Source of the DNA: Hysterium pulicare CBS 123377
Taxonomy: Eukaryota > Ascomycota > Dothideomycetes > Hysteriales > Hysteriaceae
DNA: 64,000 bases
Reading direction: 5' to 3'
Assembly (NCBI GenBank): GCA_000467715.1
Contig: AJFK01000443.1
Span: 1-64,000 of the forward strand
The translations under genes and the position numbers were made by a program. The notes below the pieces were generated by a model that saw only the letters and a program-made list of their open reading frames with translations, was not told the origin of the DNA and ran no database searches. Position 1 is the stretch's first letter. Each line of letters opens with the position of its first letter. Positions 9,493 through 50,300 of the stretch are shown here, one piece after another.

Positions 9493-10552
9493 ATGGCAAC
9501 TCTGAACGAAGCCTTTCTTTATCCTCCACTCCCTGTCGGAGAAGACGCTATTCGCATTGTCACTGTCGAAGCTGGCGACTTCTCCAAGCCGCTGATTTGC
9601 ACGCTCACCCCTGCTGCCTTCAGCACGAAGCCTAAATACGTAGCACTATCGTACACATGAGCAGACCCTTATCCTGACAACGTGACGCTTCCGACGATGT
9701 CGAGTTATGCCGATTCATCGACCCAGTCATCAACAGGATCAGCAGGTTCTCGAAGGAGACAGAAGACCTTACCTTCACAAGTTGGAAAACAAACACTTTC
9801 AAATAAATTCAATCATAACCGGTCAGAAACACTACCAAGGAGCCAGCTCCGGCGCTCCTTACAACCGCCAGAGAGCCCTGATTCAGCCGCTGAGATTACG
9901 CTAAATGGCCATCCCTTCGACATTCAGCACAACCTCCACCTCGCCCTCCTCTACCTCCTTTCTCTAACACATCCCCTGAACCTTTGGATTGACTCCATTT
10001 CCATCAACCAAGCCGATTCTTCAGAGCGCAACTCACAAGTTGCATTGATGTCGTTCATTTATACACGTGCTCTCAAAGTTGTTGCCTGGCTAGGCGTGAA
10101 CGAGTATCGCAACCAGTCCGACCTGTTCCGCAGCATGGCAAATGACTGGAAATTCGGTCTAGGGCTTCAGTTCGCGGCATCTGTGGCCGGTGCAAAAAAG
10201 CTTTACTGTTCACCGGAGCCCAGTTCCAAGACTTTTGCGCGCCTTGCCAAGAGCGCATATTGGACGAGGCTGTGGATTGTGCAAGAAATGTCTCTACCTC
10301 ATAGTCTGTTATTTGTGTACGGGTCAAATATCTGGACGTACGACAAGCTACTGCAGTGGGATGTCTTAAAGAGGGCGAGATCTAGACTGCTGTCTCCTTA
10401 TCTGACACCGGATGAAGGGAGTGACGCATTTGAAGCTATGTTACGACTACTCGATACCAGAGACGCGAGACATAGCGAGGCGATGAAACTAGAAAATCTC
10501 ATTGAACGATTCGCAAAGAGCGCATGTTCCGAATTGCGAGATAGAGTTTATG

Positions 10553-10698
10553 GCCTTCTGGGCCTTGAAGAAGAGTTTGATTAAGCTCAACCACGCGTAA
10601 GCGGCGATTATAATTAAAGCTCTCATTTATGGTTGTTGATTTCATTCAATGATGTAACGATGTTGCTTTGATTTTGCGTTGAGTTGCCTTCTGGGCCT
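10553..10698 (-). mobile_element. SINE-like retroposon copy A in the HET gene
   Basis: A 120-bp insert (10566-10685) is flanked by 13-bp direct repeats GCCTTCTGGGCCT at 10553-10565 and 10686-10698. Removing insert plus one repeat (133 bp) restores register between the two HET reading frames. The insert shares its sequence with copies B, C and D in this window. Oriented with the shared terminus (TTAATCAAACTCTT) as the 3' end, this copy lies on the - strand and is one of the two longest. Target-site duplications of 13-14 bp with nested 5' truncation are typical of insertion by LINE-type target-primed reverse transcription. No internal Pol III box is convincing, so it could be a SINE or the 3' tail of a LINE. 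Confidence 0.75.
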
Positions 10699-11340
10699 CT
10701 CGAACGATACCCGGGTGTTTTGGGAGGCAAATAACCTCGAGAATTTCAAAGACAAGTTCTTGGAGACCCTAGATCTTCCACAAGATACTCTAGAAGATCT
10801 TCAACGACGCACTATGAAGATCGAAGTCGATTACACACGCTCTTTCTACGATATCTGGACTGATGTGGTGAAATTTATGTTTTTTCGACCAATACTTACC
10901 ACCGGACGCTATATCGACTCGGTTCCAGAGGAAGGACGAAAGAGTATAGTAAGAGCTGCTGGTATTGTACAAGAAGCGTTGAGCCAGCAAGTAGAGAAGG
11001 AGGCGAGCCATTTTGATATCATCAGGGAAAGTCTGATCTTATGTTTCTTCCGATTTCCTCTCCAAAGTCCAACGATACTGACAGCCACCAGGCCATCCCC
11101 CGAGATCCAAGCATCATGGCTGAGGGCTCCTTGTGCAGCAAAATCATCCAGCTAGGGCCGTCCTACTCCGAGCTCGTCGCTTCATTCCGCGCCCACCAGA
11201 AATGGCTTTCCTGCGGGGAAACACACTACTATGTTCCGGGAGACCTTGAGCTTCTACGTGAAAAGAACGAAAGATACACATCTAGTATTCTCGCCTTTAA
11301 CAACGACGATCTCTCCCGGATTCAGGATATGCGAAGTCCA

Positions 11341-11423
11341 GAGACTGTAGCCTGAGCTTTAAATATCATCACCGCTTACGCGTGGTTGAGCTTAATCAAA
11401 CTCTTTTTCGAGACCGTAGCCTG
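11341..11423 (+). mobile_element. SINE-like retroposon copy B, shortest copy, in the HET gene
   Basis: A 55-bp insert (11355-11409) lies between GAGACTGTAGCCTG (11341-11354) and GAGACCGTAGCCTG (11410-11423), a 14-bp target-site duplication with one C/T difference. It carries the shared 3' part (CACCGCTTACGCGTGGTTGAG then CTTAATCAAACTCTTTTTC) and lacks the 5' half present in copies A and C. The inserted total of 69 bp is a multiple of three but introduces a stop. It is the second independent insertion into the same HET gene. Confidence 0.75.
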
Positions 11424-11756
11424 GCTATGGCGGCGCTCAGGCAATAAACCAGATACCTCTGATCCTAGCTACGCGATCGAGCACTGCAAGATCTGGGACT
11501 CTAATCAGAGGCAAGGAGTGCCAAACAACTCCCGGATCTGCCTCGGCACAAACGGTATCATTGCCTTAGTGCTGCCCTCTGCGATCACCTCTTTTTTCGC
11601 TTCCTTTTTCGTGACCCCAACACCCTGCGGGCTCAAGCCTATGCTACTTGGTTTGGAAGTGTAAGCAGTCAGTCTGCCGACCTACTGGCCGAGCACATCT
11701 CGCTCGCTCGCGAATTAGAGGTCTTATATAAGGCCCTTCTATCGCAATTTATTTAG

Positions 11757-12558
11757 AATTAAGACCAGGTGCCGTGATAACATTGTGCAGTGTAGGTTTA
11801 CATAGGAAGATTGTTTTGACATTTTTAGTTAGGTTAGACGTAGTTGCCGAAATTAGAGGCCGCCTGTAATATTATGGTCGTGAGTAATACGTAACCAAAA
11901 CTTGTTTACCCAATTGCCCTGACGCGGCACCTCTTTTCTTGTCTGCCTACTTAAAATCCGCTGCTCCGTCCCAAAGGTTGACAAAGGTAGACAAATTTAA
12001 CACCGAGTTAATAGAAGATGAAGAGTAATCCCTTTCAGCTAAATGTCTATAGTAGACTGATTAGTGGACTAAAGGTCTAAATACTAAACATGGAGGCGGA
12101 AGCAGTCTTACATCACGACTTTGTTGGTTAAAATACTATTCAATAAGGCTCAAAACTATTCCTACGTTCTATTAAGATACACAAATGACCATTCGCGCTT
12201 TAGCTTCAAGCAGGCAATAATAAAGCACTGCTCTCGCCAAGGCCAAACGTGCTGCAGCGCAGTCATAACGTAGTCCTTGAACAGTGCAAGACGTACATCA
12301 ACTCGTCTTCACTCACAATTGACTAGGCGGCAGCCTCAACACGTCACTTAGTGGAATTCCCCGTGTCCTAGAGTACAACATATGCATTCATCGCACTGGC
12401 GAATTGTGGAGTGGCAGGAAAACGTGCAAGAAGCATTGCACAATTGCAGTCATTTAGGTCTACAGCTGCCAGATACAAAACCCCCGCCTGCTTATAAGTC
12501 TAAGGAGCAAATTCTTCGTACAATTAGAAACGACAGTTGACACCGCGGGCGCGCAAAG
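11757..12558. other. Gene-less interval
   Basis: AT-rich stretch with scattered stops in all frames. I see no gene, repeat or recognisable element. Confidence 0.45.
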
Positions 12559-13652
12559 ATGGCCAACCCCGACGAAGCCCCTGTAGCTCCAGAGACAGCA
12601 TCTAGATAGTCCACCTAGAAGAAGAGTTTGATTAAGCTCAACTACGCGCAAGTGGCAATCATATTTAAAGCTCTCATTCATGGTTGATCTCATTCAATAA
12701 TGTAACGATGTTGCCTTGATTTTGCTTTGAGTTCTCATTGGATAGTCCACCCAGTTTCAAAACATGAAGGAGTTGACGCCGGGGAGGTCAAATAGATCGT
12801 TAGGAAAGTCGAGCAAGAAAGGATTTAGCAAGTTCTTACCACTTTCCGTTAATCCAGTGCACCATAACAATAAGCTTAAGCTGAAAGTAGCCGAATCAAA
12901 ACAACTTCTAGCGAAATTACAAACATGGGAGACTTTAGCTCTCAGAAATATACCCTATCTAGCTAAGGTCCAATAGCCAAGCTAAGTTTTCTATATAGTA
13001 GAAGTGCTTGACTAAAATGCTTGTAGGATATTTTAGAGTTAACAGAAGCCTCCTCCAGACTCCAACCAAAACGCAGACAAGGAGCAGATGCAAAGGCCGA
13101 AGAACAGACGCTGATAAGAGAGGTGCACGAGGCCAAGACCGTTGTGGATGTGGCAAGATCATGCACAGTTGCGGCTGCGGAGAAACTCAACAAGGCAGAG
13201 TGGGGGCATGCGTACGGACGACTTCATAAAATGCTATCACTCTCTTCTAGTTCGAGTAGTCAGATATTAAAACAATATCGGCCCATGATGTCCGAAGGCC
13301 CAACATCTCGGTGCCTACACTCCGCCTTCACTATTACCCTGGAGCAGACACTCTTGGAGGCGTTGAATATCTACTCGCGAGGGATAACGTTACGTCGATT
13401 AACGCCATGGATTGTCTGTCAACGCACCCAATTAGGTTGTATATACAGGCTAACAAGTTTGACGGGGCGGATAACGGGCGAGACCAACTAGCTGCTTCCG
13501 CGAATGCTGTGTGGATGCGCTTTGATGCACTGGTCGACAACCGTGACGATATAATTGAGTTTCCGTTCGACGAACTCAGGGAAACTGTTGTCGACGAAGA
13601 TGTCGCAGACGAATTCGCCGGTTGCTTGTTCGTCGTCTTCGAGGGTGGATAG
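12559..13652 (+). pseudogene. Decayed gene of unknown family
   Basis: Protein-like sequence starts MANPDEAPVAPETASR at 12559, is interrupted by retroposon copy C, and resumes in the same frame with KELTPGRSNRSLGKSSKKG and KLKLKVAESKQLLAKLQTWE. Further coding-like segments follow in changing frames: EVHEAKTVVDVARSC near 13125-13215 (helical, alanine-rich) and VEYLLARDNVTSIN near 13350-13650, ending in FEGG and a stop at 13650-13652. Several frame changes and stops separate the pieces. I recognise no family. The acidic, globular-looking C-terminal part reads much better on the + strand than the serine-rich frame opposite it, which is why I place the gene on +. It could be a remnant of a larger signalling or incompatibility-type gene, but that is only a guess from the neighbouring HET gene. 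Confidence 0.45.
12605..12754 (-). mobile_element. SINE-like retroposon copy C, longest copy
   Basis: A 122-bp insert (12619-12740) is flanked by GATAGTCCACCTAG (12605-12618) and GATAGTCCACCCAG (12741-12754), a 14-bp duplication with one C/T difference. The body aligns with copy A over its whole length, with substitutions but almost no indels, and extends a few bases further at the 5' end (CAATGAGAACTCAAAGC on the element strand). Its 3' end is CTCTTCTT. It interrupts a decayed gene of unknown family. Confidence 0.75.
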
Positions 13653-14949: not shown

Positions 14950-17900
14950 CAGTGCTATAGAAGAACCATGAAAAGTGACTTAGGAAATCACTTTATAGTT
15001 CCACCAACTTCCGACATGGACTGCATTTCTTGCTGCTTAGGCAGTAACGATGACTCTGGGGCAGATAACAAATGCTCAGCCAATGGACTTGGGAAGAAAT
15101 ATATCCAAACCACTCGGCCCAATGTTTCAAATGATTCCAAATAACGACCAAGGCTCCAGCAACTCCACATCGGGTCTTCGTATATGCAGCTTCAGTATGG
15201 CAACCAGATACCGATGAGAGTCATTAATATGGCCGAAGCTTGCGTTTAGAAACAATCATGCAAATATTAGAATCCCATTAGATGGTGAAAAGGGGCGGTC
15301 CAACACCCCAGCGACTCCCATAATGTCTGGTCCGAACCGCTTTGTGGCAGTCAGTAGATAATTATGCCCCATCTTCGTAGTAGGGGAAACCTTTAAGGGA
15401 GTCTGCATTCGTTCAACAACATGAAGAATCTGGTTGATCTCGTATGAATATGTCAGGGCTCTGGTCCAACTGACTTCATCGACGTAGTTGTTTGGTACGT
15501 GGGAGAGTTTGAGCTAGACCACTTCGGCTGCATTTGGCAAGCGCTAGCTTGTACCGTTATTTTAAAGCCATAGGGCATGAGCCTCCTCTGTAATTTCTTG
15601 TGATGCAATCAGGGTCATCGGGCGCTTGATGGTACCAAGTTGAGAGTCCCAGATCGGCCATATTGAGCAGTAGCATGCCGATATCAATTCATCGAAAGCA
15701 TGTGAGCGGAGAGCATGAGTTCGGTGCAAAGAGTTTTTTTGAAGACGAGCAAGGGCGCAACGGAGCATGAGAAGGAATGCCGGCGTCGTGATGGAATCTA
15801 CTCTTATTCAGAGCTGCTATATACCCATTTGAGAGCCTTAGATTGACCATAATCGACAGTAAAAGACCGGTTGTAAGAACTGACAAGTGTATAAATCGCC
15901 CATATCTGTTAGATTTGTTGTTTGAAGAAAGAACCATAGAGCGCCCATAGGGGATGATGTAGATGATGTTGGCTGATGTAACAGTGTCCAGAAACCTGAC
16001 AAATCCACACAAAATCGGAAATATATGCATTTTGGAAACTCAGAAATCATTGAGTGGAAGACAAAAGCAGGGACCATATGGTTGGGGCATTTTGCGCTCT
16101 TGAAGTGGAGACACTGGGCGCTCATCGCGGGAGCGCCGTATTGTTTGTAGGTTCTAGAAGGGTTAAATCTCCAACAGACCGGCATGCATCATCAATCGTA
16201 TTCTTTCTGGACCGGAAAAACCACAGAAGAAGCCCGGATCGAGGGACATAGTACTGAGCCTTGGCTATATAGAAGAACGGCCAGCACGACATTCGTGAGT
16301 AGTATCGGGCGTTTCAGGGATGTAGTATAGTTCAAAAGTCCGAGAGCACCACACGACTTCGAGCTGGAGATTATGTTGCCTTTTAGCGTACGGAAGACGG
16401 ATGTTAAGCATGCAAATACGACCGTCGACGGCCATTCTTGAAATAAAATGATCATGTAGAAGAAGAACCACAAGACACACATTCGGTGAATTGTTCCATG
16501 AGTATGGACATCATATCATCCAGCCCCATAAAATTGATCAAGCATATTGTGCATACAGTCCGGTGTTTGAAGGTAGGGGGAGAGACTCAAGAAAGGAAGC
16601 CATGTATCGAATATCTCCGAATCTTCAAAAAGGAGCGAACAAGATGCCCATGGAAAGCTTCAATACAATCGATGTTGTTGATATACTCTAAACCTTGCCA
16701 ATTCACATTGAAATATTCCTTGCAAAGGGTCTGCTACTCGCAGGACTGCGAAAGAGACGCAATAGCGGAGAACATGATGCAGTTTGGAGGTTCTAGTTTG
16801 AGCAAAGTCCCACCCCACACATACTATGCTTCCAGACTTTCCGCTATCTTGATATCATTTAAAGCTTCTCCGGCTGAACATCGTTTCGTTCTCCAATGAT
16901 ATTATGGAACTCAGACGATGTGTAAAGAGGCACAAGGACAGTAGCCATGAATAGTTACTGCCGATAAGAATGAAGAAGAGCAACAGGGTGACAGGATACG
17001 CATGACAAATTTGGTCTGAACTTGATGGTCTTAGTAACGGTTAAGAATCCAGAAAAGTTCATAGGCTAGTTCAAGCCTACGCTTTCCGACACTGAGACGC
17101 GGGCGGAAGAGACACAACAGCTGAGGCCATCCATGGGCCAGCACCCGTCAATTCGGCTCATGACGGACTTCGCTTGGACTCGATGGAATTAGTATCATTG
17201 AGAAACTCTGAGATCTCCATGTACAAAACGCTAGGTAGCTTCCCCAACCATGAATGAGAGCTTTAAATATAATCACCGCTTACGCGTGATTGATTGACCT
17301 TAATCAAACTCTTTTTCTAGGTAGCTTCCGGCACTGAGACGCAGCGAAATAGACGCAAGAACGGCGGCCATGACCTTTCCGTCATTCACGATTTAAAGAA
17401 GAGCCACGGAGTCCTCATAGGTCTCCATTTTGTTCCAGGAATAATACCCCAGGGGCCCCAATAGCTCCACATGCGTAAGCTCAATGGTAGATATGAACTT
17501 ATAGGGTGTCCGAATCATACTGGAGCGGAGACCATCGACCAAAGTATTTCCCATAGTTGAAGAGAGCTATAGGATGCTTATACCGAAAGTCCTTAAGTTC
17601 TGAGGTTGTTGATGTCATCCAAGCCTCTAAAGCACCATACCTCAGCTAGATCACTAGCTTTTGGCGTCAGAATTCCGCTGAGTGAGTGGCAAAGGCTACG
17701 GTTATGAGGCTTCTCCAGAATTGGGGTTGAAAAAGAGCCACAATCCATTTATAGGCTTTTTAACTACGTTTGTTGGCAACGTTGATACTATAGGAGTCTC
17801 CAAGAAGTCCACATTTGGAGCCAAGCGTAGTTGAGTTGACAATTTGAAGCCGGCGAAAGGGGCGCAAGGAAGACGGCCATTGCCCAACTATAGTAGCATG

Positions 17901-20450
17901 GAATAGTATTGTTCAAATATTACCACCCCACATGAATGCATCAGCAAAGAGTTTTTGGCGTTTTGGTGCCGGTAGAAGAGAGGCAAAAACAGCGGGAGAC
18001 CATAAAAACGGCACTGCTGGTTGCTTCGATGAATAATTGCAGCTGACTCATCGCATGCAGTACTGTAACATGGTTGATATCGTTCATAGTACGAAAAGCA
18101 CCACATCTTCAGGAACTCAGTGGCTTGTGAAATAGACAATCTCAGCAGCCATCACTCATTCAGACGATTGGATGTTGGAAGAAGAGTTACGAATACCCGC
18201 ATCAGAGCAGTAGGAGGATGATATAGAAAAATTTCGTCCATATCCCACCAAATCCATAAACATCCTTTCAGATCCAGTTTTTGCAGTATGATGCTGGCAA
18301 AGGAGAGCCAAGCCCGACACCAATGTCCATTTCATAAGTTGGTGTTTAAAGAGGAGCCACAAGGAACCCATGCCGTTACTCCAAGTACTGAGATGGAATC
18401 GATATTGTTCATAGTGCTGAGAGCACCGCATCATTGGCAAATTCAGGGGATTTTAGCTTCCGGAAGTCGGCGAGAGAGAGACAAGCGCGACGACCATCAG
18501 CCATTTTTTCGAGCTGATTTTAAAGAGATGCCATCGAAAGCTCATGTCGTAGAAATATAAATGTTATATGGCAGAGTATCGTTCAGATCCCAACAACTCC
18601 ACATAAGGACTTTGGCGAAGATTCTTGGCGTTCAAGTCCCGGAAGAAGAGAGGCAAAGACGGGAGCCATCATTTACATCATCACCCTTGGTTTTTGAAGC
18701 GCTACAAACACTTCAATGCATACCTTCAACCATTCACAGCTTGATATCTCCAGAGTCGGATAGCACAACATTCTTCAGAGTTTCGAGGGATTTTAGCACT
18801 CCGAAGCCGATACAAGAACAGAAGCCATGAGTCGAGATTGTAAAGAGCCGGAAAGGAGTTGCACCGCACTCACTTAGGGGTTTAGAGAGAGAAGTTAAGG
18901 GAGTAACTTCAATTTTCAGCCATTCCACATCAGCCCTTGAAGGCGTCCTTTTGGCACTGCCATGCCGGTGGAAGAGAGGAACAGGCCGCGGCATTTAACT
19001 GTTTTGCGATGGTATTTTGAAAAGATCCAGAAGACTGATACCATTACTCCAAGTGCTGAGGTGGGGTTGATGTTGTTCAACCCCACAAAAGGTCCACATT
19101 GAAGGAAAGCTCTCCTCTGGATAGGTACTTGGAACTGGGCGCAGGGACGGCGACCATCATCTCCACTGTTAATATGGGTTTCAATAGAGCTATATAGGGC
19201 TCATAGTTACCTTTAGCAGAGCGTACGTTCGCAATATTATCGATCAAACTCCCACAGGATCCGCATAGTTAACGAATGAAGAATAGATGTAGCTCCAGGG
19301 TGCCGACGGAAGAGAGAGCAAGAAGAACGGCCACCATTTGCTTTGTTTGGATGTTGTTGGCAAAAGGCCACGGAGCATAGATTCTTTCTCTCGCAAAGCT
19401 TTTGTGAAGGAGTAAAGAGTCTGAAGACGGCAGCCATTTGCCTTTTCCTGTAGAGTCATTGAAAAGAGCCATATAGTGTCTTTATGGTTGCTCTTAATAA
19501 GCCGCATACATGAAATAGTATCCAGACCTCCAAAGATCTACATGATAGCAAAGGGTATACATATCTGGCACTCGGGTGCCGATGGAAGAGAACTCAAGAA
19601 AACGGCCATCTTGAGGAAGTGAAAAGCGAGTTAAAGAAGAGCCACGGACTCGCGGAGCATTTTTCCGTACACTGGAGCGAAAATGGTGTAAGGAGATATC
19701 GTTCGGTTCCACATGGGTAGCGACAAAGTCGTATTTCTGGAATCCTCGGGCTAAGGGGGACGGATAGGAGAGCGGAGGTCATCGACCACTTGTCAAAGGT
19801 AGGCCGGAAGCAGAACACCAAAGAAGTCATAAGATGGTTTCAAGGTCTGACTGACTTCGATCTTTTTCAAGGCCGGGAGGAGCTCACATACCATTCCAGT
19901 TTTCCTCTTGTTTAGGTTCGGAGGGTTGGCGGGTAGTAGACGAGAGAGGCCGAATCTATATCCCAAGAATAAATCTGGGAAAGAGCCACAGGATACTCAT
20001 TACTGCGATAGAGAATGCTGTATGAAGGGGTGTCATTCAAATCCTAACAAACCCACATGAGGACCAGTGAAATCATGATTTGGAATCCTCTTGATTGTTG
20101 GGACGGACCAAATAGCGGAGGTCATCGGATATCCAAGACCATCGATTTGAAGCGGAGGAACGAGAGATCTTTGGGCTTTTGTCATTTTGCTATATGTTGG
20201 ATTCGATACATTTCACACTCCCACCAATTCCACATAATAATCCTTAAAGGTTACTCTTCAAGCTCGGAAGGTTGGCGAAAAGCAGGCGAGGGAGGCCATT
20301 AAACGATTGATGATAAAGCTTTCAGTAGAGACACAGGCCACCGACGTCATGGGTCGAGATGTTGATATCAACTAGTCATCGTTTGAACTCCAACCAGTTT
20401 CAACTTCCACATCCAATGGTGAGGAGCGGAGAGTTTGGTAATTGGCGCCG
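14950..20450. repeat. Diverged three-part tandem repeat, period about 168 bp
   Basis: No gene is visible, but three short motifs recur in fixed order on the + strand: (D) a stretch like ATCGTTCATAGT ending in CCACAT; (B) a stretch like CCGGAAGAAGAGAGGCAAAG ending in GGCCAT or GAGCCAT; (C) a stretch like AAAGAAGAGCCACAGG ending in CTCAT. Positions of the CCACAT/CCGCAT of D include 18253, 18426, 18599, 18925, 19094 and 19261, giving steps of 173, 173, 326 (two units), 169 and 167. C recurs at about 16461, 16625, 16797, 16974 and 17135, then 17391, 17557 and 17729. Units are so diverged that only the motif cores and spacing survive. On the - strand each module begins with ATG and reads like MWCS, MGSLWLFF or MAVFLSSLP, but frames are not maintained over more than a few units. 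Function unknown. Confidence 0.7.
17231..17329 (+). mobile_element. SINE-like retroposon copy D, inside a repeat unit
   Basis: A 73-bp insert (17244-17316) is flanked by perfect 13-bp repeats CTAGGTAGCTTCC at 17231-17243 and 17317-17329. It is intermediate in length between copy B and copies A/C and ends in CTTAATCAAACTCTTTTT. Its insertion splits a B module of the 168-bp repeat, so the array is older than this insertion. The perfect duplication suggests it may be the youngest of the four copies. Confidence 0.78.
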
Positions 20451-23400
20451 AGGATAAGACCACATAAGGGGCAAGCCATGTCCGCGTTTGGAGACGTCGT
20501 TATTGGAGCGCACACTACTGCAAACCAGCATTGAGGTTCTTTCCAGATCTGACAGATCCACACCGGAGCGATAGGCTCATGGTCTTGAAAAGATCTGAAT
20601 GGTCCGCACATAGTACCAGTATTCCAAGTAATCTGGAGAAAGTCACCCAGAATCACTACCCGGGGGAAAGACGGGAAGAACATTTGTTGCTGGTACGCGG
20701 AAAAGTGGACGAGATCTCAGCAGTCCCATGGGATACGAAAAGATGAGTGTTGAATGAAGGGTCCAAAGCTCCAGAGGAGTCCCATGATGCCTACTGGTAT
20801 CGTATCTTGGTAGCAAGAACCCCATAGACATTGTGTAGTAGAGAGTTCGAACATTATGTAGCATTTTAAAGGATCAGTTCTGGACAAGAACGATAAGCGC
20901 TTGCATTGGTGTCATATGACCAGCACCATCAGGCGGCTTGGCTCGGAAGTTGACTCCAGACATCATTCAACTCTTTCCAAAAATCCGAAAGGAAAGGCCC
21001 GCCCACATTACGCCGAGAAGGAAGGTACAATGATGGATACGACTCTCCAGCCCGGGCATGGAGGTAGCTGCTACCATACTTCGAGGCCAAAGAGGCAAAG
21101 GTCGGCCACATAAGAAGGTTATGTGACTACGTAGTGATCCAAAAAGCCTTCACAGGTCCCAGTACCGCCATTAGAGTTATGATAGCGAAAGTGGAGGAGA
21201 ACAAGGCTTGCCACATCAGTATACAGTGAGATAGGTAAGGATCAATGCTCTCAAATATCAACAAGGGGACATGTATGGGGATAGTACCATGAGATTGAGA
21301 AGCGAAGAGCCAACCACGCATATAACAGTGATGAAAATCGTGATGATGAATGCTCTCCGGCCATTCATTATGGCAATGTGGGCAATAAGACCAAGTTGAG
21401 AACGGAAAGGCCAACCACACATAGTGCGGGCTGTTGGTCCGTGATAATCAATGTTCCCATGTCCCACCACCTAGACATCATCCTTGTTCTTCGCGGAGAT
21501 GGAAGTCAAGGAATGGAAGCCGAACCACATGAATTAGTAACTATTAAAGTGCTGATCAATGCCGCAGGCTCGCAAAATCCCACACGAGCCCATGGTTTAG
21601 CTGCCGGCTTGTACTTGAGCAGCCACAGACCAACCACATAGCCATAGATAGTGTCGCGCATCGTAATGATCGATGCTCTCCGGCTCGGACATGAACCATA
21701 GACCATGAGACTGTCGAACGTTGAAGTCGAGGGACAAAAGCCCACCAAATGTAGCTGAGTGTATGTTGCTGATCAATGTTGCAGCTAACCTAGAATCTCA
21801 CCCCGAACATGGAACGTAGCGTTGGATGGATTGAACAGCGAAGACCAACCCCATATCGATGGGGTAGAACCATGCTGATAAATGCCACAGAACCAAACTT
21901 CCCATCCGAAGACATGACGTGTAGGACGGTTGTCGAGTTGAAGAGCGAAGTTTTGATCACATTGCGATCACACCTTCCAGCGGGATAACCAATGGCTCCA
22001 AAAATCCACAGAAAGGCATAAGGAAGTGATAATCACGGGAGTTGATCATAATATCTCCAGGTTTTCTTTTTGTGATTTTCAGCTTTGTTCTCAACAACTA
22101 AATAACCCAATGGTTAATTAGGAGCATTCGCTGGCATCAGCACATCGTTTGTTGAAAACTCCATAGTGAGGATCGATGGTCTTTTCGGACTCTAAGCGTT
22201 TCGAGTAGAGAGACCCGATGCATATGCCGATGGTAGTCGAAACCATGATGTGGATGCTAAAGGTGATTGGTTCGAAGTCACAGTTTTTCACGCAGAGGCA
22301 TGTGGAGGCTTGTTCAAGTCATCGAAGAAAGCCCAGCGACATAATGCCATAAATGGCAATAGGATTGATCAATGTTCTCGAGATTCCACAGGAAGACATG
22401 TAGCTGGTGGACTCTGAAAGTCGAGGAGCGGAAAACGAATCGCACATGTTCGTTGCTCGGAAGTGTATGACTGATCCATATTCCCAAGTTCCCGACATAG
22501 AGACATCGAGTTGAGGAATAAAAGATCAACTACATATGTTAGATGGAAATCAAATGATAACCGAGATTTGAAAGACATCTAGTAGAGCTCCGATGGAAGA
22601 CAAGGAGCGGAAGAACAACCACATGCATCGTAGATGAGATCGCTGATTGATCCGCATCCGAGATTGCGGCACGGAGACATGGCTACAGCGAGTCTTTCAG
22701 ATGACGAGTGAACGACCAACCACGCATTTAGTACTCTAAGACTGACGAGTGACCCCAAGATCTAGCACGGACGCATACGTGAAAAAGCGGAGAGGCATTG
22801 GAGCAAAGACCAACCACACATATGGCTCACCGGATTTGCTATATTGATCAAAGTTCCGACGTTCCGGCAAAGACATGAAAGCCTTCCCAGAACTTGGCCG
22901 AAGAAACATAAGACCATCATTTGAAGGACGCTGGTATCCTAGTTGACGATCAATGTTCCCATGATCGAACATGAAGATATCATTTTGGTTTGGTAAAGGA
23001 AGTAAAGAGAGGAAGTCCAACCACGCATGTGGATGGTTACTGATGCTCAATGTTTCCGGGACCCAACATGCAGGCATTGCTATCACGAAGGAAAGAGGGC
23101 AGGTCCAATCATACATCGAGTATTCAATGCTGGGTTGATGTTGCCAGGATCGATCGAGAGGCCATAAATCCGAGAAACCCAAACAGTTGAAAAGCGGAAG
23201 TCCAACCACACATGGGAATGACGGGTGTGTCGAGTTATGTTCCCAGGTTCCCAAAAGCAGCCATGATCCTAAGTAATTCTGAGTAATTGAAAAGTGGAGG
23301 TGAAAACGCCCATGTCAGAAACGTGGGTTCTGGCGTTATGTTCCGAAGAACCAACAAGCAGCCATGTTGTAGGGGAGGACAGGGTTGAAAACCGAAACGG

Positions 23401-25240
23401 CAACCACATAGAACTGCTCAACAACCTTTGGCGATAATATTCCTAGGACAAGACCCAAAACAGAGCCATTCATCTTTTTGATTGGTCCTCTGAAGAAGCA
23501 AACGACCGGCCACACGTGTCATCTCCAGGGTCCGGTAGTATGATCCTAGAGCCCCGAGCGGAGACATAGTTCCCCACTTGAGTCGAATTCGAAGAGGCAA
23601 AAAGGTCAACCACACATGTAAAGATAGACACTCCGATGAACGATCCCAGAACCGAAAACGGAGACATAGTACTTCTCCACCCAGTAAGATTAAAGAGAGA
23701 AAAGACCAACCACACATGTCCACGTCGAGCAATCCAGTGATGATCCCGGGACGCAGAGCAAAGACATCATGTTCTGGGAACCTGGCCCAATTGAAGAGGC
23801 GGAAGCCCAACACACATACGCCATATCCAAACTCTCGATGAATGTTTCCAGAACCGAGGACTGAGACATCATCGTCCTGTGTACCTGGGATCGGAGAGCC
23901 AAAGTCCTAACCACTCATGTCATAACGGAGCGATCCACAGATGATCCCGGACCCGAGGACGGAAGCATCGCTCTTCTATTTGGGATGGTTTCAAAGAAGC
24001 AAAGCTCCCAACCACACATCCAATGGCTCAATGGCAGGAAGAAAGTCCAAGCATCTAGAACGGAGACATCAGAATCCTCCGAGCCGAAAGATTAAGAGAG
24101 AAAAGGCCAACCACACACTTCAAACCAGGTGAGAGACGGTGGATGTTCTGAGGACCGAGAACGGAGACATCGCTCTTCCCTTGGCAATGGTTTTGAAGGA
24201 GCAAGGGGCTGACCACACATGTCATGACCAAGCGATCCACAGATGATTCCGGACCCGACGACGGAGACATCGCTCTTCCCATGGCAATAGTATTGAAGAA
24301 ACAAATCCCAGCACATAATGTTTTCGATCATGCACGCGTGATCCCAGAACCCGCCACGGAGACATCACGACCCGCGATTCCATCATATGGAAGCGGTAAT
24401 CCAACCACATACATACGCGTTGTCAGCGGTAATGATGAAAGTCCCAAGGGTCTAACAAGGAGACATAAGTCCTGCATGTGGAATGGTTATAGAGTGAAAG
24501 GCCGACAAAATACGTCCCGCAGGAGACATGGATGATCGATTGACCGGCCGGACACGCCGACATGAAGGCGTGAAGGTGCCTATCTTCTTGCGTTGGGGAA
24601 GCGGAAGGCCAAGCAATAAACATATGCAGGGTACGGCGCAGTAATAATGAATAATGGTTCCAGAACCCATGGCTGATGTTACTGCATGGCTATTGAAGCG
24701 GAAGGCCAACCACCAAACACCAAACACATTTTCCAAGGTAGAGTTGTATCGATGATGAATGGTTCCAAGGCCCGACACCGAGACATGTCTGGTGAACACC
24801 GTTTGAGATGGACCGGAAGACCAGCGACCTGCGCTGGCGTTGAACATAACAATCGATCGATGCTCCCAGGCCCGAAAACAGGGACATACCCCACGGCTGT
24901 AAGTTGGTGTTGGCGACTCCAGACTTCCATGGAAGACGAGGAGGGGATTCGAAGAACCCATGGCGCCGTTGCGGTCTTTGTTCCTGATCGACACCAGAGA
25001 AACCGCAGACGCGATCATCCACGGTTCCTTCCACGAAGTTGGCAATGGGGATAAGTCAAGCAACAGGACAAGTCTCGCAACTGCCCCATGCATTGTCAAT
25101 GATAGCCAGTTCATCTCCCAGCAGTTGATCCACTCCATCATCCATGCTCCTATGGGCTTACGATGCCCACACAAGAAAGGAAAAAGTGCACCCGAAGTAC
25201 AGAACAAAGCATCCCCAAAGCAGAGAACGACGGAGTCTAT
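20450..25240. repeat. Diverged two-part tandem repeat, period about 100 bp
   Basis: Continues the left block with shorter units. Two motifs alternate about 50 bp apart on the + strand: X, CCAACCACACATG, and Y, a GATCCCGGACCCGAGGACG-like stretch ending in GGAGACAT. X cores (CACACAT) lie at 23611, 23711, 23811, 23912, 24013, 24112, 24214, 24312 and 24406, steps of 94-102 bp. Y cores lie at 23560, 23660, 23760, 23862, 23961, 24062, 24163, 24263 and 24358, steps of 95-102 bp. Left of 23 kb the spacing is looser (about 97-120 bp). On the - strand X reads MCGW/MWLVF and Y reads MSPFSVLG. Some short runs stay in one frame, giving minus-strand open frames of 172 codons (22736-23254) and 251 codons (24452-25207), but most of the array does not. 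No known gene family is recognised. Confidence 0.75.
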
Positions 25241-25263
25241 ATAGACGCCCAGGAGCCCCGATC

Positions 25264-25680
25264 TCGTTCCTCTGGAGTCGACTTACCTGGCTTTGACACC
25301 ATTTACCCTACAGCAGAGCGGCCGCGTGGATGAGAGCGGTGAGCTTACGGCCGCGGAGTGTGGACTCGTGAGTATGTTATACGATAACTTACCCTGCAGC
25401 AAAGAAGGAGAGGAGAAAGATGTGGTGAGCTTACGGCCGTGGACTTAGGGGAATGAACACATCGTACAAAGACTTACCCGGCGAGAAAGAAAGAGCAGAG
25501 CAGAGCGCTGAGTAGACGCCCTCTACCCTCTACATCACGATCCCATCACACAACGACTTCCCCAGCGAGAAAGATATGAGCGGATAAATGTGCGGTGAGT
25601 ATACGGCCGCAACTCTGCCCTCGTGAGCGAGTGGTGCCGGACTTACTACATGCATGGTGAGCTGGCGTTCAATACGAATC
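25264..25680. repeat. Short direct repeats of about 86 bp at the array edge
   Basis: A different repeat borders the large array. An ACTTACCC(T/G)GC core followed by purine-rich AAAGA recurs near 25270, 25385, 25470 and 25556 (steps of about 115, 85 and 86 bp). GGTGAGCTTACGGCCG recurs near 25340 and 25425, with a variant GGTGAGTATACGGCCG near 25592. About four units are recognisable. The cores look like 5' splice donors (GGTAAGT or GTAAGC on -, GTGAGC on +), but no exon is evident. Confidence 0.6.
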
Positions 25681-26357: not shown

Positions 26358-27554
26358 TTACAGAGAAGAGCCCTTCTGGACCTTAGCGACGACCTTCTCG
26401 ACGGCTGCGAAGAGAGGGTGAGATGTCTCCAAGCCGGTGATCTTTTCCGTGGCCTCCTTGGCACTGTTGTCCTTGAGAATCTTGGCCAACTCAGCACTCT
26501 CCTCGTCGCCTTCTACATTCTGGAACCGAAGAGCCATCTCGACACCTCCAAGCAGAGCATCGTATTTGTCGCCCATCTCGGCAAGGTGGGCCGCGGGGGC
26601 AATGAAACGCTCCTTTCGGGAGAGCTTGCGGAGTGGCGCACGGCCGACACGCTCGACCTTGTCTTCAAGAGCTGGGTTCGAGATACGCTTGATGATCTTC
26701 TCGACGTACTCGTCCTGTTCTTCGGTGGTGATTTCGTGCTTGTTGGTGATGAGGTGGGCGGTCTCCTTGAGGGCGTTGCGAACGATGTCGTGAAGTTCCT
26801 TGGTCTCCATGGTCTCGTGGATGGTCGACTTGCCGGCGTTGTAGCCGTAGTAGGCAGCGGTGGCGTGGGAGGTGTTGACGGTGAAGAGCTTACGCTCGAT
26901 GTAGGGCTGGAGGTCATGGACGAAGTGGACGCCCTTGATCTCGGGCTGCACGGCGCCGTCGAATGGCGGAGACTCGACGCACCACTCGAAGAACTTCTCG
27001 ATTTTGACGTTTAAGCCAGCGTCCGGGTCTTGGTGGGGTACGATACGGTCAATGGCTGAGTTGGCGAAGCGAGCCTTCTTCAGAAGAGCATCGTCTTCAG
27101 CAAGTTTGGGCTCGTTCAGCTTATCCTTGATGTAGCTTGTGATGAAACCCTTCCAGGTAGTTGTGGCGTTGATTGCGTTTTCACAGGCAATGACTGCGAG
27201 AGGGGTTTCGGACTTGCGCGCCTGGATAGCCTTGGCTACTGGCTCGGCGACGAACTTGAGGATGTTTGGGCCCACAGCACAGGTGACGACATCTGCGGTA
27301 GCAATCTCGTCGACTACCTTGGCCATCTCGTACTTGCTGTTGATGGCACGGTAGTGGTCAATGGTGAAGGTTCGCTCTCCATCATCGCCAATTTCCGTGA
27401 CAGTGTATTTTGGGGTCTTCTGCAGAGCCTCGATGATGCTGTCCATGACATCAACGAAGACGACCTCATAGCCGGAGTTGTGAAGGAACTCGGCGACGAA
27501 GCCACGGCCAATGTTGCCGCCTCCAAAGTGTACAGCTTTCTTGTCGAAAGGCAT
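26358..27554 (-). CDS. mpdA: Mannitol-1-phosphate 5-dehydrogenase
   Basis: 398-aa single-exon protein starting [19 protein letters not shown], which carries the NAD-binding glycine-rich loop near residues 11-18. The polyol-specific long-chain dehydrogenase signature appears as [14 protein letters not shown], and [14 protein letters not shown] and [12 protein letters not shown] match the C-terminal catalytic domain, including the active-site helix. The enzyme reduces fructose 6-phosphate to mannitol 1-phosphate with NADH, the first step of mannitol synthesis in ascomycetes, in the cytosol. The open frame continues about 140 codons upstream, but that part is low-complexity (serine, threonine and proline rich) and the family starts at MPFDKKA, so I place the start at 27554 and regard the upstream part as 5' untranslated sequence. 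Length and motifs are complete. Confidence 0.95.
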
Positions 27555-28404
27555 TGTGGTGTTTGTGGGTTGAATATGGGGGAATTGGAGGTTAATTGGA
27601 GGAGTCGAGGAGGGTTTTGAGGGCGAGAAAGAGGATACGTGGGTGTTGTGTGGGCGGAAGTGGCTGTGGGAGGAAGGAGCAGGTGTAGCTGGAGGTTGAA
27701 GAAGTGAGGTCAGCCGGAGGGAAGAAAAAGAGGCTCTAGTCGGAGTTTCCAGACTCACCCTGCTTCGTGCGCAGAATGCGGTGTGATAGGCGATTAGGCT
27801 GCGTGGGAGGGCGTTCGCTTTATCGTTGGTTGGCGCGAGGGTGAATTGGGGGCAGAGTATGTGCTGGTCGAGATACCCCGCAGAGGCGGTGATGATGCAG
27901 GCTGGCAGGTGTGAGCAGCCCAGTTGGGCTAGGGACGCCACACCAAAAGTCGATTGCACTGGCACGACCAGCAAAAGAAATACCTTCAGCTTTCTTTCCG
28001 GAATGGCGCAGGCTGAAAAAGGCTTTTCAATGCTCTTAGGACAAAAGCGATTCAGGTACCCCCACTATCCAATTCATAACGCACATAACCCAAGCTTGAC
28101 ATGGCACATCAGCACAGAGGCATCAGCAATGTTGCATCAGACACGGAATGACAAGCCCAATTCCCTCCGAGTATCGCGTACTTGAATGACCCCGAGCCAC
28201 GATCGGCGTCATGATAGCAACGTTTTTATGGTAGCTCCCGTTAGACCCCGCTCGGGTGGGGCGAACTCATATAGGAGATCTGCATGGAACTTCATGCGAG
28301 ACCGTCAATTGTATCATAAATCTATTACATGCCCATCCCATGTGAAGTAGGTACCCAATACGCTGTTCAGTTTTCCTGCCCATCACTTCCCCAACTCTCC
28401 CTCA
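27555..28404. other. mpdA promoter/5' leader and spacer to PNS1
   Basis: The part next to mpdA (27555-27975) is open in the mpdA frame but looks like pyrimidine-rich leader in transcript sense. The rest is spacer beyond the 3' end of PNS1. A short GC hairpin near 28243-28260 (CCCCGC paired with GTGGGG) is noted without a role. Confidence 0.5.
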
Positions 28405-46212: not shown

Positions 46213-49165
46213 ATGGATCATCTTCCATACCCAGGTCACTTGGGCATTTCTCCTGTCGTAGTTCCGTACTTCGGATTGTATGAGTTCGATGGGAAAGAAT
46301 TTGGCACTTTTTCCGAAAGATTTCCAAGAAGCGTTGGCCCTGGAGCCAAACTTTCGACACAAGAGACAGCAGCGCTAGCTCAGGCTTGGTTATATTTCGG
46401 GTTAATCGAAATCATCGTCGGGCAGAAGCTAGACAAGAACACTCTCCTCCGGAAGCCCACAGTATCGGAAGCCGCTGTCACAGAGCGCGTGGTTGACAGC
46501 TCGGCGCTACCTAACTTGCTCAGTTCTCGCGTGAGGAACTTACGAAAGCAGGGGAAGGTCAAACGACAGCAGGATTTGGCTTTGTGGCGCTCAGTTCTCC
46601 AAATTGCTTCTAAAAAAAATGCGCAATTCAACACCATTCTTTCGTATGATGAAACGAGTGCTGCAGTTTTCCTATCGATTAATGTTCTCCTTGTCACCTT
46701 GAGAGATTTCTACAGTCGCGTGGATGCGATTTGGACCCTCAAGCAAAAGAATGGGGGTGCATCTTCCCAACCAATGAATGCAGACCTGCCCAATTATTCG
46801 GGAGTTTTGGAATATCAGTATCTTGGTCGTCCTTCAATAGCAGCTGTCTTGTTGATAAATCGAATGCGACAAGGAGGCTGGTGCGCTCACCAGATCGCCC
46901 AATTCCTCGACAGCTTGGATTACTGCATAACATACTACCTATCGTCAATTCCGAGGAAAGATTTACCGGATATAAATCATGACTCATGTACGGAAGTGGA
47001 TTGTGTTGCGTACAATACTAAGCCGGATGAGTACAAAGTGCGACATGTGTCCGAAGAATGCCAGTGCTGTACCATTGAGGCGCCATGGCAAGCAATCAAC
47101 CGGATTGTACGTGCGGGCGGGGTTCCTCTAATAAGAATTTTGACCTCTCAAGGAAAGCCGCCGCTACTAGATGTCGTGGAAAGCACCGCAACCACAGATT
47201 ACACTGCCATTTCTCATGTGTGGATTGATGGACTTGGGAATCCAAAGGTGAACGGGCTCCCAACATGTCAAATCAACGAATTGGCCAAACACCTTTTTGC
47301 GCTGTCTCGATTGCAGCAATCCATGTTTTCACGCCTTTGGTGGAAATTAAGAGGAAGGTCCAATCATACGACTTCACTATGGATGGACACCTTTTGTATT
47401 CCGGTCAAGCCCGAACACGCAGATCTTCGGATGAAAGCCATCAATCGAATGTCTTTTATTTACGCAGGCGCAAAGGAAGTGCTTGTGCTAGATGACGAGC
47501 TTCGAAAGGTCGACTCACAACGCGAGCCCATCGAGCTGTTGCATGCGCGAATATTGTCCTCGAGATGGAACACTCGCAGCTGGACATTGCAAGAGGGCGC
47601 TCTTGCCCGTTGCAGCTTCTTCCAGTTCCGAGACGTAGCGCACAAGCTGGAATCGCCTGAAGGATATAGTTCTTTGGAGGTCCGCTGGAATCGTTTGAAA
47701 AGAGCTCTTAAGTCGCCGCTTTGGATATTCAGAAGCTGCTGGGAGTGTATGAGGCGACGGGATATGATCTGGTTGTTAGCGTATCTTATGTTTCCGCCTC
47801 CATCGGTATACGATGATGTGAAACAGTACACAAAGAGTTCGCTTCACATCCTGGCATCCACAAGATTCGACCTTCAGCTTTTTAATGAGGTGGGGCGGCG
47901 ATCTTTTCTTTTCTTTGATCCCCGGATGCCCCCTTCACTCGCTGCCAAGTTCGAAAGAGCTTGGAGGAATTTGGGCCAAAGAACAACTACCTACTCCCAT
48001 GATCTTCACGTGATACTTGCCAATCTAACAGGTTTCAGCGCAACTCAACTGATGCAGCTGGATACCCCAGTAAACCGAACCAAGACAATGTTACAGTGTC
48101 TTCCCGACTTTGATCTCGGTCTATTGTACAATGATTATCCAAGGCCAGAAGGAGGCGGGAATCACTGCAATCGGTGGATACCTAGTTTTCCCGGTCCAGC
48201 TCACCTCGATGGCAAAGTCCGTGGGAGAATGACCTCGAAAGGAACGCTTGTCAATGCGGGAGCAGATTGGACAATCACTTTCCGGCTTAAACCCGGATGT
48301 TTCCTGCCTCAATTTCGGTTGAGATATCCCCGCCCATGTAAAGTACACGATAGTCGTTGCAGGAATCAGGGAGACGCTGTTCGTACAGACTGGTGCTTGA
48401 TTACTTGCTTGCTCCCGCCTAACGATATGCTGGCAAGAGATCCTTCAAAAAGCGCCTACATCATGCTTTCTCTGTATACAGGGAATACCGTTCAAGAAGA
48501 ACCGTTGCGGGAATTGCGCGGAGCACGGCTTCTTGAAAACCGAAGAGAAGATTCGGGGGACATACACGTTCGATTTGACTGTCCATTGACGTTAACTGTT
48601 CAAAAATTCCGGCCGACGGCAGAGCACCTGGCTAGCTTTCCAGAGTTGACTATTCAGGACATCATAAATACGAAACATCTTGTTATCGAATGTGGTAAGC
48701 CCTCATAGTCTCACTCGCTTGCAGAACTTACCTAATACTCTTATAGATATGGATCCGAAAGTTTGCGAGAAGTTTCCAACACGAGATGGTAACCTCTTCA
48801 GAATATCTCGATGGCGAGAGATTACAATCATTATAGGTGTTCACATGATCGTCTATTCTGGTATTATAACCAGCACAGCAATCATTCTGCTGGAATTAAA
48901 TGCTATCCAAGAAGCCGCCATGTTCACATTTCTTTTAACTTGCTTAATATTCGTATTTGTGTCGTATCGAGTAGTGTCCAGTTATATAAGATCACAAAAT
49001 TATAAAGCTTGGAAAGCGACATTCGAAGAGGACTGGGAGCCGGGGAAAAAGCGCCCAGGGAGATATAGAAGACTGTTGGGATGGGTGGGCATCGGCCAGA
49101 AAAAGAAGACCGGAGTCACCGAATGCGAGATGGTGCCAACTGGAGCTGCTGAATCTGCGCCTTGA
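46213..49165 (+). CDS. HET-domain protein with two C-terminal membrane segments
   Basis: Two exons, 46213-48694 and 48747-49165, joining in frame to 966 aa. The intron has GTAAGC, a CCTAATAC branch site and TATAG. The protein starts MDHLPYPGHLGISPVVVPYF, which is a common N-terminus of large Leotiomycete HET proteins. The HET domain begins near residue 325: DYTAISHVWIDGLGNPKVNG, then SLWMDTFCIPV, AINRMSFIYAGAKEVLVLDD and SSRWNTRSWTLQEGALA. Past the domain lies a long helical region. Exon 2 encodes two hydrophobic helices (ITIIIGVHMIVYSGIITSTA and MFTFLLTCLIFVFVSYRVV) and a basic tail, so the protein is probably membrane-tethered. HET proteins control death after fusion of unlike mycelia. Unlike the copy at 9.5 kb this one is intact. 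Confidence 0.9.
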
Positions 49166-50300
49166 TCGTTCGAGTCAAGCTTTCACAACTTCATGAAAAT
49201 ATCTTCCGATTTCAACTTATTACGATTTCCGTTTCAAAGGCTTGTGCTTTCTCGGGTATGCTTTATTCTGTGAGACATAGATGTTGCCTTTTTAAATTTC
49301 GATACTTCTGAAGTTTTGCTATCAAGGCATGCAATGGAAGTGGAATACAGTTAACATTCGCAACTAATAACTCTATTCTAGACTGTTGGTCAACTTTGTT
49401 AGCCTTGAATTACCGTGCGAACTCGCTCTTGTAATGATCGTCGACAAGTGTGATGAGGATCAAAAGCCAAGACACGCTTAACTCAGCCGTTTCACGATTG
49501 GAGTGGCGTCAGCGATATCTATGAGTGGCAACTCGTACGAAAGATGGATATACAAAACTCTTCAGAGATAGGTGAATTTCCTGGACCATTCTCTAGAGAA
49601 GCAATATAGAATCCCAACTCCCTCGTCATACTTAGGTTAATTTGGCCTAAGCTATCTACATTCACACCGAAAAAGCGATCTTTTGTGGTTTGTAGTACAG
49701 TCCATCGCTAGTAGTGTATATGCGCTTCGGGCTTGCCCGATGATCCCAGCACCATAATCCATCACAGTGGCATTATAGCGATAAACTCGGCTGCAAAGGA
49801 ACTATGACTTCAGATTGCAGTTCCACCCATACATGGAATGCCCTGTCATTTTAGGATCACGTCCCCAGAAAGAACTCTCTCCGTTCCAACTTGGTGTCTC
49901 ATCATCCAAATGCTTGGGACTCTAAGCTGGATGAAAGAACCCGTGAAGTGGGATCCTAACTTGTGAAAGCCCGTACAACATCTATCTACTTCCTAATCTT
50001 CGGCCTTGTGTAGTCATTGCAAGCATCGACTCGAAGTTCCCACGACTTTGGACTTTATCATTCACTCCTTGTTCCTCTACGTGGCAGTCCAGCTCCGCAG
50101 TCATCGCTGCTGTCGAAATATGGATACTCATTACGTTGGCGTTTACGGAGGGTTTGCCTCGATCGGATCCAAGAAGACTCTAGGAAGCAGACACAACATT
50201 CTTTGTTTACAGGTTAAGGTTCTAGGTATGATAAATGTGGAGGCGAGGATCCATGAAGTCGGACGCTCGGTCTGTGTTAGGTCCGAAAACATGAATTGTT
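49166..50300. other. Gene-less interval leading into the second repeat block
   Basis: No gene. Module-like CAT motifs begin to appear from about 49.7 kb, but the border of the repeat block is fuzzy. Confidence 0.4.

Follow-up and report, generated by a model that had tools for sequence, protein, structure and literature searches.

What keeps a 10-kb block of fungal DNA in step when the sequence of its repeated units has drifted almost beyond recognition? A sequence-only reading of the window (the whole 64-kb stretch of DNA analyzed here) had described such a block at 14950–25240 as gene-less and as something other than a conventional gene. Its coordinates and the lack of genes were confirmed: no gene was found, and the block, array 1 below, is non-coding. 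That reading did not mention a further array, similar in kind and lying in the same orientation, at 50199–57416 (+ strand); the two arrays together cover ~17 kb of the window. We tentatively propose that both may be members of a single dispersed family of ancient, non-coding tandem repeats of satellite-like character, whose strand-specific boxes have been, or still are, under selection, probably as a series of putative binding sites.

Layout and periodicity of the arrays

The left half of array 1 (14950–20400, + strand; lags of 171, 323, 343, 497, and 668 bp) carries, per ~171 bp, three module types ending in GGCCAT (M1), CTCAT (M2), and CCACAT (M3), with a 27-module chain at 17933–19378. Its regularity starts at ~17.9 kb; the part before 17.7 kb is not periodic alone, and in 6-mer lag analysis no lag exceeded the null for 15.0–17.7 kb by itself. 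The right half (20400–24890, + strand; lag 99–100 bp) is composed, per ~100 bp, of two alternating modules, A ending in CCAACCACACAT and B ending in GGAGACAT, with 46 modules chained at 22626–24887. The best-preserved stretch of the array, at 23500–24470 (+ strand), shows mostly 49–52-bp steps, conserved box ends, and linkers near chance. Array 2 (lags of 136, 275, and 420 bp) contains, per ~136 bp, the modules Z (...AgaCAT), X (...ATCccgaaCAT), and Y (...CgacCAT); it is regular at 54.9–56.1 kb, with a chain of 26 modules at 54927–56062.

When 6-mer lags were compared with 50 dinucleotide shuffles (mean null maximum ~3.5), the right half of array 1 reached z 28.8 at 99 bp, and the left half 4.1 at 171 bp and 10.7 at 343 bp. 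In 2-kb windows, with 30 shuffles as the null, the values were 38.3 at 100 bp for the right half (null maximum 5.2), and 9.0 at 323 bp and 8.3 at 497 bp (null maximum 6.9) as well as 11.3 at 346 bp (null maximum 7.6) for the left half. The single 171-bp peak is weak, a control at 4–9 kb having given 4.5 at lag 82, and the left ladder therefore rests on the approximate multiples of ~170 bp (343, 497, 668) and on the chained module ends. Successive M1 ends at 18003–19337 are 149, 172, 173, 172, 159, 167, 162, and 180 bp apart, and successive B ends at 23567–24466 are 100, 100, 102, 99, 101, 101, 100, 95, and 101 bp apart. Both ladders of the sequence-only reading, ~168 bp near 18.2–19.3 kb and 94–102 bp at 23.5–24.4 kb, are thus borne out by the steps and by autocorrelation peaks at ~170-bp multiples and, far above shuffled controls, at 99–100 bp. 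Tandem Repeats Finder at its default threshold reported neither array.

Array 1 also contains multi-unit duplications, with lags of 301 and 670 bp, and in both arrays the regular stretches have degraded flanks. This alternation favors the chief rival to our proposal, an old satellite without present function, in which a T-poor, CAT-ended founder spread and decays, and the core signal reflects homogenization, uneven mutation, and alignment anchoring. We regard this explanation as possible, if doubtful.

A short dispersed element copy, with a 13-bp direct repeat (CTAGGTAGCTTCC) on either side, is inserted in array 1 at 17245–17322 (− strand). To the right of array 1, lag and class scans located a separate short ladder (GGTGAGCTTACGGCCG / ACTTACCC; no strand assigned) at 25303–25627, within 25.3–25.65 kb, which had been overlooked at first reading. 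It is without the CAT grammar and differs from array 1, and is treated here as a feature of the neighborhood and not counted as an array member.

A strand-specific box grammar

Many of the modules consist of a T-free tract (~10–33 nt), CAT on the + strand, and a near-random linker. The modules had been said all to end in CAT; the enrichment is real, but "all" is an overstatement, with an exact CAT at the anchor in 71 of 99 chained modules (sum over eight types). We scanned 72 run/terminator classes in the left and right halves of array 1 (B1L and B1R), in array 2 (B2), and in four controls. The class of T-free runs followed by CAT on the + strand ranked first in each array segment and lay outside the top four in all four controls. 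Runs of at least 10 T-free bases followed by CAT on this strand numbered 27 in B1L, 46 in B1R, and 30 in B2, against 7.7, 9.4, and 7.9 expected, and T-free runs of at least 15 ended in CAT in 68/125 cases in the arrays and 20/146 in the controls (Fisher p 5e-13). Two small intergenic stretches off the arrays gave 3/9 and 3/8. CAT was among the two most over-represented trinucleotides of each segment (z 3.6, 3.8, and 5.0; ATG 0.7, 1.8, and 1.8) and was not similarly over-represented in three controls (z 0.8, −1.9, and 1.1); within the sub-stretch 54.1–56.0 kb it came third (2.2), with ATG ahead of it (2.3). A T at +23 after CAT ranked highest among 164 offset-base cells in every segment (0.74, 0.54, and 0.50). 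This spacing is a preference and is not rigid: the T that most closely precedes the following T-free run stood at 22–24 in 5/20, 12/41, and 5/19. In motif discovery, with each score set against its own shuffles, the arrays scored higher by the larger margin (304.5 vs. 230.2, 255.3 vs. 215.2, and 319.6 vs. 299.7), and the controls were slightly above their shuffles too (239.9 vs. at most 233.0 and 297.3 vs. at most 295.7).

That the same grammar ranks first in three segments speaks against an old satellite without function. Selection on nucleosome-scale phasing, which had been suggested for the block, is not supported, because one box grammar spans periods of ~100, ~136, and ~171 bp; a nucleosome-phasing element with a single nucleosome-scale period was rejected. 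Strand specificity as such is also expected from tandem duplication of a founder.

Conservation of boxes and linkers

In the best-preserved stretch (nine A and nine B modules), the identity of the last 12 core bases is 0.71 for A and 0.78 for B, and that of the linkers is on average 0.26–0.39 (0.22–0.41 for adjacent ones), with 0.26–0.32 expected by chance. The sequence between cores is thus almost unrelated, as had been noticed from the sequence, and linkers near chance beside conserved box ends agree with old copies whose order and spacing persist. The greater likeness of the box ends hints at past or present use of the boxes. With core borders and anchors defined on the same data, a partition model of 22 units improved lnL from −2278.3 to −2213.6, with speeds of 0.55 for cores and 1.52 for linkers, so that cores change ~2.8-fold more slowly. 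In its upstream half, the A core is hardly more conserved than its own composition predicts (0.43 vs. 0.39).

Even decay is the expectation for old tandem arrays. Near-chance linkers beside box ends of 0.7–0.8 count against the old satellite, as do the near-constant steps, which limit the freedom of anchoring. On the other hand, core and linker decay is partly equal in the clearest later duplicate (23819–24020 vs. 24120–24317, 66.5% identical), where by eye one linker is kept as well as the adjoining core and 5 bp are lost from an A core. The duplicate alignment concerned five pairs, with 17800/18460 and 19600/19950 dropped (overlapping ranges) and 19100/19440 unused (21-base overlap). Equal-rate coalescent simulations (40 runs each) also sometimes match the heterogeneity among columns seen in the 12 best units, whose sd is 0.232, with maxima of 0.242 and 0.232; equal-rate star-tree simulations stayed below it (maxima of 0.178 and 0.182). 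The arrays are head-to-tail non-coding repeats, and a box is kept within otherwise variable monomers, the latter with the reservations raised by the duplicate and the coalescent simulations. As regards origin, the suggestion of no more than an old satellite is probably correct, but linkers near saturation beside box ends that persist in three segments are not easily explained by it alone. Under the reading that we prefer, the boxes would be held, now or formerly, by purifying selection as a row of putative sites for a nucleic-acid-binding protein.

Relation between the arrays and search for relatives

Segment profiles found other segments better than did their column-shuffled selves in 9/16 tests at p ≤ 0.02; the count was 7/11 between array 1 and array 2 only, and 1/8 for a control region. 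Profile A exceeded its shuffles on the + strand only (z 4.3 in B1L and 3.1 in B2), and profile B was unremarkable in the same two segments (z 1.6 and 1.9; controls up to 1.3). When module profiles were compared directly, most pairs were not significant, with p < 0.05 in 3/28. Between arrays, composition and CAT are held in common, and word-level similarity is weak by direct comparison and present in the column-shuffle scans. The cross-array matches are also compatible with the common descent of an old satellite.

These comparisons bear on a duplex-DNA platform, in which a DNA-binding or heterochromatin protein would occupy the boxes, much as the CENP-B box is occupied in alpha satellite. Box ends with 8–12 conserved bp at fixed steps suit such a platform. 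We nevertheless judge it improbable, as the boxes of the arrays are not clearly one word, their common composition is strand-specific, and two arrays in 64 kb amid ordinary genes are unlike one centromere. It does have a precedent: in the satellites described in PMC3694981, a box persists although the rest of the sequence has diverged.

In our preferred reading of selected boxes, the sites might, as a weaker step, be read in a + strand transcript that would be U-poor, unstructured, and CAU-ended, because the eight module types share a strand-specific composition and a trinucleotide, not one duplex-DNA word. More speculatively, and on the whole unlikely, the arrays could represent an undescribed fungal locus class, in which dozens of strand-specific modules in a row would each have a T-free tract, CAT and, preferably after a gap of 22 nucleotides, a T, with selection on grammar and not on sequence and a role as long multivalent RNA platforms. 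Judged by titles and abstract openings, no description of such arrays in fungi was found in the literature searched. A pattern scan for relatives gave 0 matches in viral_contigs and, in genome_contigs, two bacterial records, neither of them array-like (T-free runs of at least 15 ending in CAT at most 6/89 and 5/58, on either strand).

Coding, RNA, and repeat-decay explanations

Decayed or micro-exon coding repeats (33–34 aa repeats or many tiny exons) would fit the period near 99–102 bp in part of the arrays and the minus strand, which reads as ATG followed by A-free tracts and has fewer stops; tracts free of A are stop-free. Steps of ~100, 136, and 171 bp, however, do not fit, and stops occur in every frame of each 1-kb block tested. 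Averaged over the eight module types, the information content was 0.80, 0.75, and 0.84 at the first, second, and third minus-frame codon positions, and the third position was lowest in only one type. There was no excess of 5'SS-branch-3'SS consensus combinations, and Pfam gave no match for two open stretches of array 1, at 24455–25282 (276 aa, minus) and 22736–23254 (172 aa, minus). We therefore consider coding repeats very improbable. The repeated peptide envisaged earlier is unsupported, because the unit lengths are not multiples of three, stops are present in all frames, and third positions are not more variable. Minus-strand mini-ORFs from each ATG, with lengths scattered from 3 to 126 codons, and a protein-coding tandem repeat (TPR, ANK, microexon), for which neither an open frame nor codon-phased conservation was seen, were rejected.

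Rfam returned nothing at gathering score for the whole window, and nothing for 14.0–26.2 kb when relaxed to E 5. Folding of both arrays in 120-nt tiles gave a mean z of −0.26 to 0.15 (three segments, two strands). A structured or known RNA family was rejected, with no Rfam match at these thresholds and no folding energy below shuffles; as no RNA structure was found, an unstructured platform would be possible. Near-random linkers of preferred length could also suggest a guide or small-RNA array, with boxes as processing signals and linkers as guides. We find this scarcely credible: 103 linkers compared with the rest of the window scored on average 14.28 of 20, vs. 14.26 for shuffled linkers, a duplicated unit shares a linker, and, with module steps of 34–71 in B1L and B2, many linkers must differ in length. 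A CRISPR-like guide array was rejected in the same way, with no unique spacers matching other DNA in this window.

With TA/AT of 0.50–0.67 and (CA+TG)/(AC+GT) of 1.33–1.38, the DNA has no RIP signature and is not an AT-rich relic, in agreement with the sequence-only reading. A RIP-degraded repeat was accordingly rejected, the DNA being neither AT-rich nor high in TA/AT nor low in (CA+TG)/(AC+GT).

Comparison with known systems

If a compositional, strand-specific grammar does outlive sequence, it would point to functional repeats that are missed by ordinary repeat finders. The signature, a T-free run with a CAT end on a single strand, is countable in any fungal genome, which makes the question of selection versus neglect directly testable.

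The closest known kind is satellite DNA with conserved boxes. Primate alpha satellite has ~171-bp monomers and CENP-B boxes. Array 1 resembles it in the left-half period near 171 bp, diverged monomers, and multi-unit duplications, whereas the arrays described here are short, lie among genes, differ in period, and are far more diverged. Long non-coding RNAs of the NORAD type have repeat units with Pumilio sites, and the analogy lies in a long row of short putative protein sites in diverged units; the motif and the organism are different, and our arrays are known from DNA sequence alone. According to PMC3694981, the satellite DNAs of Meloidogyne keep a CENP-B-box-like Box 1 in monomers that are 32–64% identical overall. 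As in those satellites, the monomers here are tandem and non-coding, with low overall identity and a short kept box, and the mixture of monomers in higher-order repeats is a further likeness. In Meloidogyne one 17-bp segment is kept, whereas what the arrays here have in common is a T-free composition, CAT, and a preferred T 23 nt on, with words specific to each array.

Periodicity of the arrays

Identical 6-mers were counted at each lag and compared with 50 dinucleotide shuffles. In the right half of array 1 (from 20400 to ~24890, + strand; modules A and B alternating), a lag of 99–100 bp reached a z of 28.8, with its multiples too, and 2-kb windows gave 38.3 at 100 bp. The ladders described in the sequence-only reading of array 1 are thus real, and the step sizes claimed between module ends were borne out. 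The ~168-bp ladder of the left half (~14950 to 20400, + strand; modules M1, M2, and M3) holds through the lags at 343 (z 10.7) and 498 (z 7.3), but the peak at 171 (z 4.1) is by itself unconvincing, because the control region at 4–9 kb reached 4.5 at lag 82. The 2-kb windows of this half gave 9.0 at 323, 8.3 at 497, 8.1 at 668, and 11.3 at 346, and for 15.0–17.7 kb alone no lag exceeded the null. For array 2 (~50199–57416, + strand), the 2-kb-window scan peaked at 136, 275, and 420 bp within 53–57 kb. Some non-array windows also exceeded the null maxima, e.g., lag 36 at 29–31 kb (9.0), lag 84 at 41–43 kb (7.8), and lag 93 at 62–64 kb (7.0). Tandem Repeats Finder reported neither array. Since the periods are about 100, 136, and 171, the nucleosome phasing offered earlier as an explanation is not needed.

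A T-free tract followed by CAT

In array 2, as in array 1, the + strand carries CAT at the module ends. The array 2 modules keep a constant order, namely Z (TT.tGGACa.GAaAAaaGc..AgaCAT), X (..gaagCcaAgcAAcgATCccgaaCAT), and Y (gTATagTcCgacCATG), and their median steps are 45, 54.5, and 35. CAT was among the top two over-represented trinucleotides, on one strand, in both halves of array 1 and in array 2, while in the sub-stretch 54.1–56.0 kb it came third with ATG equally high. T-free runs were first counted in a search for what stands before CAT. As a test was needed that did not choose this class beforehand, a scan against 40 shuffles took in all 72 classes defined by strand, absent base, and closing trinucleotide. 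The + strand T-free tract ending in CAT ranked first in the left half (27 vs. 7.7 expected), the right half (46 vs. 9.4), and array 2 (30 vs. 7.9), and was outside the top four in all four control regions. Minus-strand A-free GGA in the right half (z 5.1) and A-free CCA in array 2 (z 4.6) were also high and are taken for left borders of the same tracts; minus-strand T-free CAT was likewise high in the right half (6 vs. 1.8).

T-free runs of at least 15 bases ended in CAT in 68 of 125 cases in the arrays, compared with 20 of 146 in controls, coding DNA among them, and 4 of 24 when the arrays were read on the opposite strand; five small non-array intergenic stretches gave 0/9, 3/9, 3/8, 0/2, and 0/9. 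When each 1-kb bin was searched for CATs with 10 or more T-free bases directly in front, bins 14–24 held 76 on the + strand vs. 9 on the − strand, bins 50–57 held 30 vs. 7, and the remaining 45 bins 49 vs. 37. Downstream, T at +23 past CAT was the top of 164 offset-base cells in the left half, the right half, and array 2 (frequencies 0.74, 0.54, and 0.50; n = 27, 46, and 30), and other cells were on top in two controls. The sites were picked by the T-free rule, so the upstream tract is built in and the +23 T is not, though the latter is partly a consequence of step and tract length. The last T ahead of the next T-free run lay at 22–24 in 5/20, 12/41, and 5/19 cases, respectively; the +23 T is a preference and no rule.

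Relationship between the arrays

Each module profile was run across the segments other than its own and compared with 200 column-shuffled versions of itself in which CAT stayed in place. Profile A matched the left half (p 0.005) and array 2 (p 0.010), B array 2 (p 0.005), M1 array 2 (p 0.015), M3 the right half and array 2 (p 0.005 each), Z the right (p 0.015) and left (p 0.020) halves, and X the right half (p 0.015). Matches were absent for B and X in the left half, M1 and M2 in the right half, M2 in array 2, and Y in both halves. Altogether 9 of 16 scans, and 7 of 11 between arrays 1 and 2, had p ≤ 0.02, against one of eight profiles (M1) in a control region. Against dinucleotide shuffles, profile A gave a z of 4.3 in the left half and 3.1 in array 2, and B was not outstanding (1.6 and 1.9). 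When profiles were compared directly with each other, similarity was weak (p < 0.05 in 3 of 28 pairs). Judged by these sequence comparisons, the arrays are probably of common ancestry, their words largely changed and their grammar of T-free tract, CAT, and preferred T kept.

Conservation of cores and linkers

Cores (module boxes) and the linkers between them were compared at 23.5–24.4 kb, where nearly all steps are 49–52 bp and anchoring freedom is small (nine A and nine B modules). For the final 12 bases of the core, identity was 0.71 (A) and 0.78 (B), and for 26 bases it was 0.56 and 0.70, compared with 0.26–0.30 (A) and 0.32–0.39 (B) in linkers, chance being 0.26–0.32. The upstream half was hardly above expectation from its own composition in A (0.43 vs. 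0.39) and clearly above in B (0.64 vs. 0.27). Adjacent A linkers were no closer to each other than distant ones (0.22–0.23 vs. 0.26–0.30), and adjacent B linkers were slightly more alike (0.35–0.41 vs. 0.32–0.39). Across 22 units at 22.6–24.9 kb, separate rates raised lnL from −2278.3 to −2213.6 (speeds 0.55 for core, 1.52 for linker), with core borders derived from the same data. The scarcity of linker indels is weak evidence, because substitutions far outnumber indels in fungi. Within these limits, box ends resemble each other more closely than linkers do.

We propose that the arrays are ancient satellite-like repeats whose boxes may be selected, now or formerly, as rows of binding sites; selection would then cause the difference between box ends and linkers, and the reader would be a protein. 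That the putative sites are read in + strand RNA is a guess, its sole support being strand specificity and the sharing of a composition rather than of one word. The chief rival, a functionless decaying satellite, falls only slightly behind selected boxes in likelihood. Heterogeneity among the columns of the 12 best units was occasionally reached by equal-rate simulations on a coalescent tree and was not reached on a star tree. In the clearest later duplicate, an A core has a 5-bp loss and one linker looks, by eye, as well preserved as its core.

Other readings lack support. No sign of coding was found in the arrays, so that coding repeats and the repeated peptide considered earlier are not supported. 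Likewise, there was no intron richness, no known or folded RNA in searches of the arrays, no sign of RIP, and no sign of guides with matches in this 64-kb window.

Genomic surroundings

The analysis covers 64 kb of DNA with filamentous-ascomycete-like gene content; Pfam identified HET-domain genes, a cytochrome P450, glycosyl hydrolase 47, mannitol dehydrogenase, and a CUE-domain protein. Both arrays have a + strand HET gene to the left (open piece 9661–10584, Pfam match on 9661–10581, E 1.8e-20, probably a broken gene; long open frame 46213–48708) and a − strand gene to the right (mannitol dehydrogenase, 26358–27974; CUE-domain gene, 57959–58525, both by Pfam). With two cases, this layout may be chance.

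The 9661–10584 frame terminates inside a copy of a short dispersed element, which recurs ~0.8 kb further and inside array 1. Its four copies (10563–10685, 11354–11415, 12614–12733, and 17245–17322; 83–90% identical where aligned) comprise two of ~120 bp and two of ~60–77 bp in opposite orientation. Each is bounded by a direct repeat of ~13–14 bp, some with one mismatch (by eye), as in retroposed SINEs. Lag peaks of 135–138 bp occur at 10000–13000 (8.8 at 11–13 kb vs. a null maximum of 5.3), a region without the CAT grammar. A separate short ladder at 25303–25627, stepping by ~85 and ~170 bp, has GGTGAGCTTACGGCCG / ACTTACCC blocks similar to 5′ splice sites on both strands; at 25.3–26.3 kb, 0 of 9 T-free runs ended in CAT.

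Comparison with known satellites

A literature search of titles and abstract beginnings gave no fungal example of such arrays. In root-knot nematodes, satellites with very different monomers share a conserved box, and a CENP-B-box-like 17-bp segment is kept in two satellites only 32% identical (PMC3694981). The present arrays fit this kind of conserved-box satellite. Unlike the nematode satellites, arrays 1 and 2 have in common a composition and a trinucleotide rather than one word.
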